A stretch of 64,000 bases of DNA from Candidatus Binatia bacterium (GTDB lineage: Bacteria > Desulfobacterota > Binatia > HRBIN30): contig JAOAHD010000016.1 in NCBI GenBank assembly GCA_026415395.1, forward strand, positions 186,001 to 250,000, written 5' to 3'. This document shows positions 83-52,704 of this stretch, piece by piece; the first letter of the stretch is position 1; each line of letters starts with the position of its first letter. The notes under the pieces were generated by a model. It was not told the DNA's origin. It was given only the letters and a program-made list of their open reading frames with translations, and did not search any database. The position numbers and the translations under genes are program-made.

Positions 83-856
83 TCAGGCCAACAACGCGGC
101 AAGTTTGGCCGCGGGGTCGTTCGCCCGTACCAGTGCTTCCCCGATCAGAAATGCGTGCACCCCCGCACGCTCCAAGCGCTCAATGTCGTCCCGGCTGTCG
201 ATCCCGCTTTCTGCAACAAGAATCAAGCCGTCTTGGTGCCGAACTCGCGCCGCCACCCGCTCGGTGACGCCCAACGAGGTAACAAACGTTCCCAGGTCGC
301 GGTTATTGACGCCGATCAACCGAGCTCCAGCCGCCAGGGCAACCTCCAATTCTCCTTCGCCATGGACCTCGACGAGCGCAGCAAGTCCTAAGGCCGTCGC
401 CCCTTCAATGAGCTCACGCAACAGATCGGTCGCGAGCGCTCGCACAATCAGCAACACCGCATCCGCGCCATACGCACGCGCTTCGTGTAACTGGTAGGGG
501 TCGAACAGAAAATCCTTGCGCAACAGCGGTAGCCGCACCGCTCGGCGGATTGCCTGCAGGTGCTGCAAATGCCCGAGGAAAAACTGGGTTTCGGTCAGCA
601 CCGATATCGCCGCTGCCCCACCAGCCTCGTATGCGCGCGCGAGCCCCACGGGGTTAAAATCCTGTCGCATCACACCCCTAGAGGGCGACGCCTGTTTTAC
701 CTCCGCGATGATTGCACGCTGCCGTTGCAAAGCCCCTACGAAATCCCGCCGCGGTTCGTGGTACAACGCAACCTGGGTCAGCTCTGCGAGCGGCACACGC
801 TGCTTTGTGTCCGCCAACTCCGCGCGTTTGGCTTCCAGAATACGATCGAGAATCAT
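83..856 (-). CDS. trpC: Indole-3-glycerol-phosphate synthase
   Basis: A 257-residue TIM-barrel enzyme that decarboxylates and cyclises CdRP to indole-3-glycerol phosphate in tryptophan synthesis. It opens MILDRILEAKRAEL and carries IIAEVKQASPSRG (catalytic Lys and phosphate loop), LRKDFLFDPYQ, LVEVHGEGE, GVNNRDL and VAESGI, all family landmarks. The ATG at 856 overlaps the trpD stop (ATGA), indicating translational coupling. A longer in-frame extension toward 1444 is rejected because it would run through trpD. Length is normal and no catalytic residue appears to be missing. Confidence 0.96.
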   Translation of the reverse strand: MILDRILEAKRAELADTKQRVPLAELTQVALYHEPRRDFVGALQRQRAIIAEVKQASPSRGVMRQDFNPVGLARAYEAGGAAAISVLTETQFFLGHLQHLQAIRRAVRLPLLRKDFLFDPYQLHEARAYGADAVLLIVRALATDLLRELIEGATALGLAALVEVHGEGELEVALAAGARLIGVNNRDLGTFVTSLGVTERVAARVRHQDGLILVAESGIDSRDDIERLERAGVHAFLIGEALVRANDPAAKLAALLA

Positions 857-46562: not shown

Positions 46563-48647
46563 TCAAATCTGGTAGTTGTGTACGAACACGCGCATTTTCT
46601 TCGGAAAGACAAACAGCCGCTCCGCCGGCTGTGGGCGCAGCTCCGCGTAACGTTCCCACGGCAACTCCACGCGCAGCACCATGCCGAAGTGCACCGCGTG
46701 GAGTTCCAGTTTCACGGTGCCACCGAGCGGATTCACGCGTAGCAGGCGGGCTTCCACGCTATATACGCCACGGGGGATGCGATCCACTTCCAGTTCATGC
46801 GGGCGCACATACGCCACGGCGGCTTCTCCGTCGGCCTGTTCCTCTTCGCTCACACCTAGCGGGGCAACGAACCCTTGCCCCTCCCGCACGCGGCCAGGGA
46901 ACTTATTCACGTAGCCGAGGAATTCAGTGACGAATGCATTCGCTGGATGCTCGAAGACCTCCACTGGTGTTCCCGTTTGCTCGACCTTGCCATGATTCAA
47001 CAACACAACCTGATCCGCTACCTCGAATGCCTCCTCCTGGTCGTGGGTAACGAACACACTCGTCACGCCTATCTCATCGTGTAAGCGGCGAAGCCATTCC
47101 CGCAGTTCGCGGCGCACTTTGGCGTCGAGGGCGCCGAACGGCTCGTCGAGCAACAAAACCTCGGGCTCCGCGGCTAGTGCCCGTGCCAGGGCAACACGTT
47201 GCCGTTGGCCACCTGAAAGCTCGGCAGGCCGCTTCCCTTCGAGCCCCTCGAGGCGCACCAAATGCAACAGTTCGCGCACGCGGCGATCCACTTGCCGGCG
47301 TGGCCACCGACGCACGCGCAGCCCAAAGGCCACGTTTTCGTACACTGTCAGATGCCGAAACAGCGCATAGTGCTGGAACACGAATCCTACGTTGCGCTGG
47401 TGGGGAGATTCACCGGTGACATCACGCCCGCGGTAAAGTACAAGCCCGCGGTCAGGTTGCTCCAGTCCCGCAATGATCCGCAGTAACGTAGTCTTTCCCG
47501 AACCCGACGGACCGAGGAGGGCAAGCAAGCTCCCCGTGGGTACGGTGAAACTCACATTGTCCAACGCCACGAAGCGCCCGAACGACTTGCTCACTCCCTC
47601 CACTCGGATGCCATCTTCTGTGCCGCTCGCAGAGGGAGACGCCGAAAACGTGCTCGGTGCGGCACTAGCGGTTTGCGCAGAGTGAACCGGCCCGGTTGCC
47701 ACATGGTCACCACGACCTTGCCCTTCCTCTTGTCCCCGCGAGGGATCGTCCTCGCTTTCGAACGCTTGCAGCTCCTGGCGTGTCCTTCGCTCGAGCCACG
47801 TTTTCGCGACCACGGTGGCCATGCCGAGCAAAGCGAGCAAACTCGCGACAGCAAACGCGCCGGGTAGATCGTAATCCTGGAACAACTTCTCGACCCGCAG
47901 CGGTAAGGTATCGGTCACCCCGGTGATGCGTCCCGACACTACATACACTGCGCCGAATTCGCCCATGGCTCGCGCGTTGCACAAAACCACGGCGTACAAG
48001 AGGCCCCAACGGATGTTCCGCAGGGTAATTTTGCCCCACATCTGCCACGCACTCGCCCCCAGGCTACGCGCTGCCAACTCCTCCTCCGCACCGACGGCTT
48101 GCAACAACGCTACCAATTGTCGCGCCACGATGGGGAACGTAACCAGCACGGTGGCAAGCACGAGCCCTGGCTCAGCAAACACGATCCTGATGCCCCACGC
48201 CTCCAGCCACGGGTACAAGGGCCCCCGGGCACCGAACACGAGAACCAAGCTCAGCCCCGCCACTACGGGAGACACCGACAGCGGCAGGTCGATCACGGCC
48301 GCTAACAGCTTGCGGCCGAAAAACTCGAAGCGAGCCAATAACCACGCTGCGCACAAGCCGAAGCCGGTATTGATCGCCACGGCAAGCAAGGCCACGCGCA
48401 GAGTCAGCGACGCAGCAGCCCGGGTGTCGGGATCGCCTACAAGCTGGCGCAAAAACGCACGCGGGCCATGCACTAGTGCTTGCGAAGCGATGACACCAAG
48501 CGGCAGCAGGATCAAAAGACCGACAACCACGAGCGCCGAGGAGGCCACCACAGCGTTGGCCCACTGTTCAACCTGCAAGAGCCGCTTTGGCCGCTCCTTG
48601 AACCACCGGTTCATTACTAACCGCTTGCGGATTTCCTCAGCCCACAT
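46563..48647 (-). CDS. cysWA: CysW-CysA fusion: sulfate permease joined to its ATPase
   Basis: A 694-residue fusion. Residues about 1-275 form a CysW-type permease with [40 protein letters not shown] and the [12 protein letters not shown] loop. A hydrophilic linker rich in Glu/Ser/Gly (about 285-340) leads to an ABC ATPase: Walker [13 protein letters not shown], signature [15 protein letters not shown], Walker [14 protein letters not shown], and a CysA-type TOBE region. No stop or frameshift separates the halves. Normally these are separate subunits. It overlaps the cysT stop by 11 bases. The start MWAEEIRK is chosen over an earlier Arg/Trp-rich reading. Confidence 0.9.
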
Positions 48648-49461
48648 AGCGCGCCCCCCAACGATGCAGAACTTCGATCGTGAGCAGAACGAGCAGCGAG
48701 GCGCCCAAAAGCACCGAGGCAACCGCTGCAGCCTCGGCGTATGCGAACTCCTCCAAGCGCGCGACGACCAAAACCGGCGCAATCTCCGTGACGAAGGGCT
48801 TGTTCCCCGAAACGAACACCACCGAACCGTACTCGCCGGCCGCCCGAGAGAAGGCCAAAGCAAAACCGGTTAGGAGTGCCGGGACGAGTTGGGGAATCTG
48901 GACACGAACCAACGTCTGCCAACGCGACGCACCGAGGCAAGCGGCTGCCTCCTCGAGTTCCCTTTCCAAATTGGCAATCACCGGCTGCAGGCTGCGCACA
49001 GCCAGCGGGAAACTCACGAATACCAGCACCAACACGACCGCCGCACGGGAGTACGCCAGAGTCACGCCCCAGCGAGTCAGGTACTGGCCGAGGAAGCCGT
49101 TCGGTGCGTACAAATTCGCGTACACCAAACCCGCTACGGCCGTCGGCAATGCCAGAGGAACATCTACCAGGGCGTCGACGAGTCCGCGTGCCGGGAACGT
49201 TGCCCGCACCAGCGCCCACGCGACAACACTGCCGAGAAGCGTCGCCACGGTCGCGGCCAAGAGAGCGGCACCGAAGGTGAGCTGGTATGCAGCGAGCGCG
49301 CGCGGCGTGAGCACGGCAGCCCAGAACCCATGCCAGCCGAGCGACGCAGCGTGGAGCAACACCGCACCAAGCGGCAAAGCCACCACAACCGCCACCGAAA
49401 CCACGGACAAGGTAAGGGCGGCGCGAAACCCGGGAAGAATCCTGCGCTCGTAGCGACTCAT
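48637..49461 (-). CDS. cysT: Sulfate/thiosulfate permease CysT (CysU)
   Basis: A 274-residue membrane protein with six segments and the permease motif [20 protein letters not shown] (EAA loop), plus [19 protein letters not shown] typical of CysT. It pairs with the CysW half of the fusion as the channel. The ATG overlaps the binding-protein stop (ATGA). Normal length. Confidence 0.92.
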
Positions 49462-50555
49462 CGCTGCCCCTCCCCCGATGCAAAGATCCGGTCGAACAGC
49501 GCGCCTTCGGCAAAGAACTTCTCCTGGGCGGCCTCCCAACCGGAAACAATCTCCTGAACGCGGAACAGCCGAAGCGCCGGAAACCGCTCCGCGTAGCGCT
49601 CCAGTACAGCGCGATCGACGGGGCGGTAGTAGTGTTGCGCGATCATCTCTTGCGCCGCCGGGGTAAACAAAAAACGCAAGTACGCTTCCGCCACCGCCCG
49701 AGTTCCCTTACGCTCCACCACACGATCGACCCATGCAACCGGCGGCTCTGCCAAAATACTGATGGGCGGGTAGACGATTTCGACTCCTCCTTGAGACTCG
49801 CGAACTTCGAGGTGGGCCTCGTTCTCCCAACTGAGGTGCACATCTCCCATGCCCCGCTGCACAAAGGTGGTAGTTGCACCACGGGCACCGGTGTCCAACA
49901 CGGGCACATTGCGATACAGCTTGGTGACGTAATCGCGAGCATCGGCCTCCGAGCCGCCACGGAGAACCACCGCGCCCCAAGCGGCGAGGAAGCTCAGGCG
50001 TCCGTTGCCCGATGTCTTGGGATTGGGCGTGATCACTTGCACGCCCGGGCGAACAAGGTCAGCCCAGTCCCGAATGTTTTTCGGATTGCCCTTACGCACG
50101 ACGAACACGATGGTGGACACGTAAGGCACGGAATTGTTCGGCAGCCGCTGTTCCCAGCCCTCCGGAATCAAGCCCGCCTTGCGGATTGCATCCACGTCCG
50201 GCCACAACGCCAGGGTCACAACATCGGCGGCCAAGCCGTCGATCACCGCACGAGCCTGACTTCCCGAGCCCCCGTGCGATTGACGGATGACCAACCTTTT
50301 GCCGCCTTCGGCTTCGTACTTGGCGCGAAATGCGCCGTTCAGGTCGCGCCACAGCTCCCGCGTTGGATCGTACGAGGCGTTGAGCAACTCGAGCGCCTCC
50401 TCGGCGAGCGCGGGGAAGGCAAGGCCCACCGCTCCCGCCATCCACACGCAAAGTGGCAGGACGACCCACAAACTTGCGTAACGACGCCGACGGGAGACGC
50501 GCGAAAATTGCCGTTCGGCACCGTATCCAATTCCCGATGCAATCGGAGTTCTCAT
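49458..50555 (-). CDS. cysP: Sulfate-binding periplasmic protein
   Basis: A 365-residue binding protein (Sbp/CysP). An extended twin-charged N-terminus (SRVSRRRRYAS) precedes the signal helix ending FPALAEE; then ELLNASYDPTREL, QSHGGSGSQARAVIDGL, TPNPKTSGNGRLSFLAAWG and GMGDVHLSWENEAHLE, all family-specific. It delivers sulfate or thiosulfate to CysT-CysWA. An excellent SD (AGGAGGG) precedes the ATG. First gene of the operon, behind the attenuator-like leader. Confidence 0.93.
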   Translation of the reverse strand: MRTPIASGIGYGAERQFSRVSRRRRYASLWVVLPLCVWMAGAVGLAFPALAEEALELLNASYDPTRELWRDLNGAFRAKYEAEGGKRLVIRQSHGGSGSQARAVIDGLAADVVTLALWPDVDAIRKAGLIPEGWEQRLPNNSVPYVSTIVFVVRKGNPKNIRDWADLVRPGVQVITPNPKTSGNGRLSFLAAWGAVVLRGGSEADARDYVTKLYRNVPVLDTGARGATTTFVQRGMGDVHLSWENEAHLEVRESQGGVEIVYPPISILAEPPVAWVDRVVERKGTRAVAEAYLRFLFTPAAQEMIAQHYYRPVDRAVLERYAERFPALRLFRVQEIVSGWEAAQEKFFAEGALFDRIFASGEGQR

Positions 50556-50653: not shown

Positions 50654-50690
50654 CAAAACAACGAAGGCCCAGGGGCTTCCCGGGCCTTCG
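50654..50690 (-). terminator. Attenuator terminator before cysP
   Basis: On the minus strand CGAAGGCCC (50690-50682) pairs with GGGCCTTCG (50670-50662), 9 bp with an 11-base loop, followed by TTGTTTTG. It precedes cysP by about 100 bases. The 5' arm plus loop can instead pair with an upstream segment (50776-50760), giving a choice between termination and read-through. No other minus-strand gene lies upstream that would need it. Confidence 0.6.
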
Positions 50691-50715
50691 CGGGTGGTGC
50701 GTTGATTCTCAATTA

Positions 50716-50829
50716 TTACAACGCAACGCAGTGCCGGCGCACGCAGCGCACCACCACCCGGCCCCGGGAGAACCCCTGAGCCTGACTACAGCAACAACAG
50801 CAGTAAGTACGCGGTGCATGCGAACTCAT
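50716..50829 (-). CDS. Polycysteine leader peptide of the sulfate operon
   Basis: A 37-codon ORF, MSSHAPRTYCCCCCSQAQG followed by an Arg/Val/Cys tail ending CVAL, stop TAA. Codons 10-14 are five consecutive Cys codons (50788-50802). It ends 26 bases before the terminator arm. The downstream segment 50776-50760 can pair with the terminator's 5' arm. Ribosome stalling on Cys codons would free that segment. This is the expected design of a cysteine-sensing leader for sulfate uptake. The ribosome site is weak, and an overlapping frame (50709-50819) is the competing reading. Confidence 0.6.
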   Translation of the reverse strand: MSSHAPRTYCCCCCSQAQGFSRGRVVVRCVRRHCVAL

Positions 50830-51799
50830 GCGACGCCGTTGCCTACCTTCGCACGCAGGAAAACGCAAGCGCCGCGTTTCCACGCTCGTGGAAGCGAGCG
50901 TCCTCGGACCGAGTACGCGAAGCGCCGAGCTCCACACCGGCAAATTCTCATTGCAGAGCAGCGACATCAATCAGGCGCCGGTGCGGGCTACGGAATCCTC
51001 AGAGCTCGGAGAGCCAAACACGAAGCGAGGTCGCCGCGTTTCCATGCACGCATCGAGACGAAGGGGGGTTCGTCAATGAGGACCATCTGGGTGCCCGTTT
51101 CATCGAAGCAGCCCTGAGCGCCGAAGCGCGTATTCGCCAGTGGACATCCAACCTCGCGCCGGCCATGTATGTTAGCGTCCATTCTTCTGGACGAAGCAGC
51201 GAGGCTAGTTTTGTTGAGCCTGGGCGAAGCGGACTATGTCGGCGCGGGCGGTGTCGTGCTGGGCGTCGCTAGTCGTGGAGGAGCGATAGGCGAGAAGGTA
51301 GCGGCCACTGCAGCAGTGCAGCGTGTGCGCTGCTGCGGATGGGGAACGACAGGCGGCGCAGCATTGGCGCTGCAAACGCGCCGGGCTTTGGGTTCGACCG
51401 CTGGAGCGTGTTTCCCTCCGATGGGGTTGCGAAGAGCAACCGCGACGCAGGCCAGGCCAGCCCCCCGCCACTCCCGCCAGCACCTCACTGCTACCGAACT
51501 GCTACCGACCTGCCTGTATGCGTTGGTCTCCCCGCTCTGGCCAGCGGCCAGCCCACCGCACGGCACCGGCACAGTGGGGCGGAGGCCAAGGAAATGCCGG
51601 TGCCCTTTGCGGGTGCGGCGTACGCGCGAGCCAATCAAACATGTTCTGACGAGGCCAAGTTTGCGGCGGAGATCATTGGCTACGAGCCGAAGGACGACCA
51701 GCCCCTCATCGAGGCCGGAACCCTGGTGGTATCGAACCTGGCCCTCTCACCTACCATCGGTTCTCCCGGGGGCACTTGTAGGAGCCGAGGAGAAGGAAC
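50830..51799. other. Low-information region with a possible gene remnant
   Basis: Nearly 1 kb with many overlapping frames and no intact gene. A stretch at about 51595-51777 (plus) reads MPVPFAGAAYARANQTCSD, then KFAAEIIGYEPKDDQPLIE and GTLVVSNLALSPTIGSPGG, which looks like genuine protein sequence and may be the end of a secreted or toxin-associated protein. The remainder is Arg/Pro/Ala-rich in all frames. Confidence 0.35.
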
Positions 51800-52704
51800 A
51801 TGGAACGGCTGGTCGTTCTCATCTGTGTGCAGTTGTCCCTGGCCTTGAGCTCGGCCCTGGCTTGGGCAGCAGAACAGCCCAGGCCAGAGGATATCGCGGC
51901 CCTTCGCCTGGCACTTGAGCGATATTTTTGTTTCAAGGGCTACTCGGGGTTTCTCAGGGACCGGGGCATGGACAAAACCCGAGAAGGCTACCGTGCTCAA
52001 CGTTGATGCCCGCTTCTACGCGATCCGGGAAAAGCTCCGAAACAAGCTCACCCGGCCGGAGATGATGACGTGGTTCTCCGAGGGAACGGTGAAGCCCGGT
52101 CACGCGCGGGTCGTACAAGCATTCGACTTGGCGGAGGACTCGTTTTGGGATGACCTCGGCAGACCGTGGTTGCGCCAGTGGTTTGCGGAGCGGCCCACAG
52201 TGTCATTCCAGCTTGCCATCCCACCAGATTGCCCGCGCTACGATCCGCCAACTCCCGAGAAGGAGCGCATGGTGGAGAACATCGTGCGAAACATGCGCAA
52301 CTTTATGCAGTGGATCGTCGATCATGAGCGTGCACGGGGCGAGAGGCCGTCGTACCCGGACAAAGTCACTTTGGTGATCGCCAATTTCAACGTGGAGGAT
52401 GACTTCACGTACGTGCTCATCAAAGAGCCGCACGAGGTCTGAAACATACAGCTCCACCTCAACAACGACACCGAAGACGAAGCCTACCAGCGGCAAGGAG
52501 AGTATTCCGTGTCGTCGGCGCCTCAGCAGCACGAAGCTGTCCGAAAGCGTCACCAAGCAGGTGACAGCTCGTTCGGCGGCAAAGATTCTGAAGCACGGGA
52601 TTTGGCGCACCAACGTGCTTGAGACTGCTGGAGCCACGGTGGGCGCCAGCACACCAGGGAGCGAGGGTTCACCCACGCCGAAGCCCGACAGTGAGCCTCA
52701 TTAA
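51800..52704 (+). pseudogene. Exported protein gene broken by two frameshifts and a TGA
   Basis: A GAGGAGAAGG ribosome site precedes ATG, giving a signal peptide (MERLVVLICVQLSLALSS to WAAEQ). The frame shifts near 51985 to one reading VLNVDARFYAIREKLRNKL, WFSEGTVKPGHARVVQAFD and VTLVIANFNVEDDFTYVLI. TGA at 52440 interrupts, yet the same frame continues NIQLHLNNDTEDEAYQRQ; after about 52515 the next frame (TKLSESVTKQVTARSAAK) ends at 52704. At least three lesions. Family unknown; looks like a decayed secreted protein. Confidence 0.55.

Follow-up and report, generated by a model that had tools for sequence, protein, structure and literature searches.

The leader region and the genes behind it

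Within the window (the whole stretch of 64,000 nucleotides that was analysed) the sulfate-uptake genes cysPTWA lie on the minus strand behind a short, cysteine-rich reading frame and an intrinsic terminator (Table 1). The first-pass annotation had described a 37-codon minus-strand frame with five Cys codons before cysP, and every coordinate that it gave holds. The last of the Cys codons stands 23 codons ahead of the leader's stop codon, and a Shine-Dalgarno sequence is not evident for the leader frame (50829-50716). Known regulatory RNAs were sought with Rfam 15, including SAM riboswitches, T-boxes and amino-acid leaders, and neither the window nor any of 18 homologous loci gave a match at gathering score. 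The window was also checked for a trp leader ahead of trpE, but none was seen.

Table 1. Features of the leader region and of the genes that follow it; positions are those of the window
Feature	Position	Strand	Details
Promoter-like pair	50840..50868	-	TTGCGT (50868-50863), 17-nt spacer, TAGGCA (50845-50840)
Leader ORF, MSSHAPRTYCCCCCSQAQGFSRGRVVVRCVRRHCVAL	50716..50829	-	ATG 50829-50827, stop TAA 50718-50716, 37 codons
Putative control codons	50788..50802	-	five consecutive Cys codons, TGC TGT TGT TGC TGT
Predicted antiterminator, 5' strand	50753..50774	-	from a transcript fold that leaves out the 3' arm of the terminator
Intrinsic terminator hairpin, GCGAAGGCCCGGGAAGCCCCTGGGCCTTCGT, then TGTTTTG	50661..50691	-	13 pairs by the scanner's count
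cysP/sbp, sulfate ABC transporter substrate-binding protein	49458..50555	-	TIGR00971, E 3e-124
cysT, sulfate ABC permease	48637..49539	-	TIGR02139, E 3e-95
cysW + cysA, single ORF	46563..48863	-	matches both TIGR02140 and TIGR00968 within a single 766-aa frame

The CysW permease (approximately residues 105-362) and the CysA ATPase (residues 419-765) share one 766-codon frame in the window and are encoded by two genes in the relatives at loci L142 and L148. The single frame is either a fusion or a sequencing artefact.

A family of homologous leaders

We searched 58 related genomes for CysP and inspected the regions upstream of full-length matches. Many of these regions carried reading frames that encode CCC or CCCC and end in a similar tail. 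From 15 leaders that were readily aligned we built a covariance model, with which 148 genomes from the same class were scanned. There were 25 strong matches, each with E <1e-9, and they were spread over 20 genomes from seven families (f1, f3, f4, f7, f9, f10 and f11). By the same matches, 17 of the 25 full-length CysP loci from the initial search of 58 genomes have the leader and the other 8 lack it. A model built without the window sequence found the window at E 1.1e-10, as the sole significant match in the 64 kb and the best in the genome. A phylum-wide scan of 395 genomes yielded no leader outside the class, and 80 named CysP loci gave no match at the family's strength, the best reaching 23 bits. 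The one weak match of the phylum scan (G186/L162) was considered as a leader and rejected, being a terminator after a gene. The weaker model matches that were inspected (E >1e-7) were likewise terminators only, save for the leaders before DAHP synthase that are described below and for L154 (G019:C23:13082-13212), where a TTGACG box accompanies a degenerate leader, MSFVRTERSCTRCLDDPSVRSRFV. The latter may belong to the family as a decayed or divergent leader.

The first-pass annotation had proposed looking for a conserved Cys run in homologous leaders, and a cluster of Cys codons is indeed kept in all 25, mostly as CCCC or CCC and with a minimum of two Cys codons. Its synonymous position varies (68 TGT and 18 TGC codons). 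In 24 of the leaders the first Cys codon of the cluster stands 5-13 codons behind the start codon, with the automatic choice of start giving 1 for the remaining one (L144), and the start codon is ATG in 24 cases and GTG in one. Every leader also has a stop codon and a terminator (a hairpin and a U-rich tail) at nearly fixed spacing, the stop lying +48 to +84 nt and the end of the terminator +127 to +147 nt from the first Cys codon. The non-Cys codons have a G+C content of 0.79 at position 3 vs 0.67 at positions 1 and 2, an excess as expected of coding sequence in these genomes. Translation of the overlapping frame instead, which had been raised as a possible objection, is argued against by the fact that the other frames are open and have an ATG in just 2-3 of the 25 leaders.

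The spacing of promoter-like elements is also shared. By automatic assignment, a TTGAC or TTGCG box precedes the chosen start codon by 32-43 nt in 24 of the 25 leaders (37-43 nt in 23), and in most of them a TA-containing, -10-like stretch follows the box after about 17 nt. The promoter-like pair of the window is by itself a poor match, and is backed by this equal spacing in its homologues; from it we predict a transcription start at approximately 50833. Since the usual promoter spacing from the -35-like box would place the transcription start within a few nucleotides of the ATG, the leader reading frame is probably leaderless, or nearly so.

The genes that follow the leaders are mostly cysP/cysTWA, cysK with a serine acetyltransferase gene, and metY-metX. 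Some of the strong matches have no match to the CysP query behind them. Among these, cysK and the serine acetyltransferase gene (cysE/epsC) are preceded by the leaders L143 and L145, and cysTWA without cysP by L142, while the leader at L146 comes before a gene for a DUF3034 protein, after which O-acetylhomoserine sulfhydrylase (metY) and MetX are encoded. Two targets are not plainly tied to cysteine, namely an Alginate_exp porin gene (L149, G117:C156:8808-8972) and an acyl-carrier-protein-like gene (L147, G041:C103:51538-51691). We did not see cysS among the downstream genes that were read. Small reading frames were noted between the attenuator and cysP in two groups of leaders. In family f9 (L007, L148 and L150) a conserved frame contains ..RLWRLFHTCLC.., and L117 and L144 have another in common (..RWLRLxRHLRSCNxSARALRDAxRA..), with a Shine-Dalgarno-like motif.

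Competing RNA structures and a model of attenuation

The antiterminator, together with two further helices termed P1 and P2, was found by a scan of all column pairs. The first-pass annotation had proposed that 50776-50760 pairs with the 5' arm of the terminator, and we reproduced this pairing: when the transcript is folded as far as that arm, the minimum-free-energy structure has 50774-50761 paired with 50674-50686 and extended by 50760-50753 with 50691-50698. It had also suggested a search for covarying stems. Covariation supports both structures, the antiterminator more weakly: in the unfitted alignment of 15 sequences, 96% of cells are paired for the terminator helix (covariation reached by 0/500 shuffles) and 84% for the antiterminator (18/500, a moderate value), the latter rising to 88% (7/500) for 25 sequences aligned to a model without the antiterminator; the antiterminator strand binds its own terminator arm with a mean of -24.8 kcal/mol as against -23.1 for swapped arms (p=0.0009), and in none of these swap and shuffle statistics is relatedness among the leaders corrected for. 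The RNAalifold consensus of all sequences contains the terminator only. P1, which joins the start region to bases after the antiterminator strand, gave 1/500 in an alignment fitted to it and 30/500 in the unfitted one and is weak in the window. For P2, a local hairpin within the antiterminator strand, covariation support was not found.

We consider it very probable that the leader is a cysteine-specific, ribosome-mediated transcription attenuator that controls cysPTWA. According to this model RNA polymerase would start a few bases ahead of the ATG at 50829, and a ribosome would translate the leader close behind it. With ample Cys-tRNA the ribosome would pass the five Cys codons and cover 50774-50753, whereupon the terminator (50691-50661) would form and transcription would end ahead of cysP. 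With scarce Cys-tRNA the ribosome would stall on the Cys codons and leave 50774-50753 free to pair with the emerging 5' arm of the terminator, which then could not form, so that cysPTWA would be transcribed and sulfate import would increase. What the sequences show directly is the anatomy, its conservation, the covariation and the kinds of target genes; the start of transcription, the translation of the leader, the stalling and the response to cysteine are what we infer from them. The same mechanism, in which a shortage of cysteine raises sulfate import, had been put forward in the first-pass annotation and is supported as far as sequence can tell; it had been missed that the start is probably leaderless, that further genes are targets, and that a comparable Cys leader has been predicted in Rhodobacterales (see below).

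For the 25 leaders we folded the transcript as far as the 5' arm of the terminator, placing a ribosome on each Cys codon. The modelled mean occupancy of the antiterminator was 0.78 with the ribosome on Cys codons and 0.06 with the ribosome ten codons further on (in the window about 0.79, range 0.74-0.80, vs 0.00), as classic attenuation requires. However, many leaders were predicted to be antiterminated also without a ribosome (mean 0.61) or with the ribosome on the stop codon (0.56), and repression should therefore need efficient and timely translation. This requirement is a weakness of the attenuation model, and in some species it may hinge on P1.

Other explanations should be weighed against the same data. 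The polycysteine frame could act on the translation of cysP, as in mycobacteria, by coupling or by unmasking a ribosome site, with the hairpin serving only to end or stabilise the RNA. The apparently leaderless start resembles the mycobacterial ones, and leaderless polycysteine frames are described in a review (PMC9031893) as regulating the translation of downstream genes. We regard such translational control as very unlikely here, given that the hairpin and its U-rich tail are kept in 25/25 leaders and that the competing pairing covaries. Moreover, the distance from the terminator to cysP ranges across loci from tens of nucleotides up to about 540 nt, which is ill-suited to direct coupling, and cysP has a strong Shine-Dalgarno sequence of its own (GAGGAGG).

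An ordinary terminator next to an accidental run of Cys codons, with nothing regulatory about either, must also be considered, insofar as GC-rich terminators are common, weak matches to the model are mostly terminators only, and runs of five TGY codons occur elsewhere in the genome. Such runs are found at only six places, partly overlapping, in the whole 3.69 Mb, so that such a run, though rare, would not by itself decide the matter. It is the 25 homologous leaders in 20 genomes that speak against chance: their common order, spacing and class of target already contradict this explanation, to which we assign next to no probability. Nor is there an evident minus-strand gene directly upstream that the terminator could end, the next likely gene starting at 51915 on the opposite strand. 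Finally, the leader could encode a functional Cys-rich peptide, either metal-binding or causing arrest, that senses something besides cysteine supply. Many leaders do have a similar peptide tail (AREASRAxGRAA-like), but the stretch that encodes it falls on the antiterminator strand and on the 3' arm of P1, and its conservation is thus explained by RNA pairing. The N-terminal part of the peptide varies freely, and most targets supply or use cysteine sulfur; a functional peptide is, in our view, extremely unlikely.

Relation to known leaders and to other leaders observed

Ribosome-mediated attenuation is a known kind of system. The leader family shares with the trp/his/leu-type attenuators of Proteobacteria a leader frame with a run of control codons, an intrinsic terminator and a mutually exclusive antiterminator right after the control codons, and in both cases the target genes belong to the pathway of the amino acid that would be sensed. 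It differs from them in that it would sense cysteine, in that the start codon apparently lies near the 5' end without a Shine-Dalgarno sequence, and in that no support was obtained for a classic protector hairpin inside the antiterminator strand.

Seliverstov 2005 (PMC1262725) predicted Cys-run leader peptides, with no terminator accompanying them, in mycobacteria, Propionibacterium acnes and Bifidobacterium longum; the mycobacterial runs lie near the stop codon, and a conserved terminator hairpin was not found in that study. According to later papers that cite it (PMC9094748, PMC9031893), Canestrari 2020 (doi 10.1111/mmi.14498) established the leaderless polycysteine frames of mycobacteria as cysteine-responsive attenuators. 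The first-pass annotation had mentioned polycysteine leaders in mycobacteria, and these sources bear it out. The mycobacterial frames resemble the present family in their run of Cys codons, in the probably leaderless start and in their association with sulfur and cysteine operons. By their descriptions they differ from it, since in the present family the Cys run lies further from the stop codon and a terminator/antiterminator pair is added. In Rhodobacterales, the uORFC-8-2 motif combines two tandem Cys codons with an intrinsic terminator before cysS, and ribosome-mediated attenuation has been proposed for it (PMC8632094). Our family has in common with this motif the Cys codons in an upstream reading frame and the intrinsic terminator, whereas it mostly has at least three Cys codons, and its targets serve sulfate uptake and the synthesis of cysteine and homocysteine rather than being cysS.

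In Chlorobiaceae, most of the cysP loci that were examined have a Cys-rich leader frame of about 30 codons and a terminator, usually about 100 nt before cysP. Such leaders were observed at L164-L174, L177, L178, L184, L185, L075, L083, L093 and L101 (examples are MSILKSTSPLLPGACCCRISVCSIKGDSGFCR and MHTLRENNTICCGTCCCRMNILVHMRIHQCHR), and their terminator is mostly GCCGGTT..AACCGGC-U. Leader and terminator sequences are unrelated to those of the family found here, and the Chlorobiaceae leader is probably a cysteine attenuator of separate origin.

Our search of the literature returned no description of such leaders for sulfate-uptake operons, and in the papers searched such control has not been reported for these bacteria. 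As far as our searches show, the novelty lies in the leader family as such, in its target genes, and in the way that a probably leaderless start is combined with a terminator/antiterminator switch. A well-conserved family of Cys-codon attenuators would link the supply of cysteine to sulfate import, to cysteine synthesis and to methionine precursors. The results also suggest several separate origins of Cys-codon attenuation, and they suggest that classic attenuation can work from a leader that is almost devoid of a 5' untranslated region.

In the class to which the window belongs, DAHP synthase genes were found to be preceded by leaders rich in aromatic codons and by a terminator, at L157 (approximately 505-650, MNPKTSIFFWYFSLWRAPGPTPCA) and at L160 (approximately 431-569, reverse strand, MKPSAIFVVWSYFIPQEPGPTTCA). 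The spacing from the promoter-like box to the ATG is similarly short in both. These leaders are likely to be an aromatic-amino-acid attenuator of the same class.

On a broader view, to which we incline by a narrow balance, there could be a class-wide cysteine regulon in which leaderless polycysteine frames are joined to classic terminator/antiterminator switches, having arisen independently of the mycobacterial, Rhodobacterales and Chlorobiaceae kinds. In this class, ribosomes would then bind straight to an AUG at the 5' end of the transcript and so read the amino-acid supply, and the aromatic version before DAHP synthase would work alike.

A further short frame was seen in Rhodopseudomonas (L060), where a very short ORF, MRHSHDEDFVADCCCA, lies about 186 nt before the gene for a sulfate-binding protein; it is possibly an alphaproteobacterial Cys leader.
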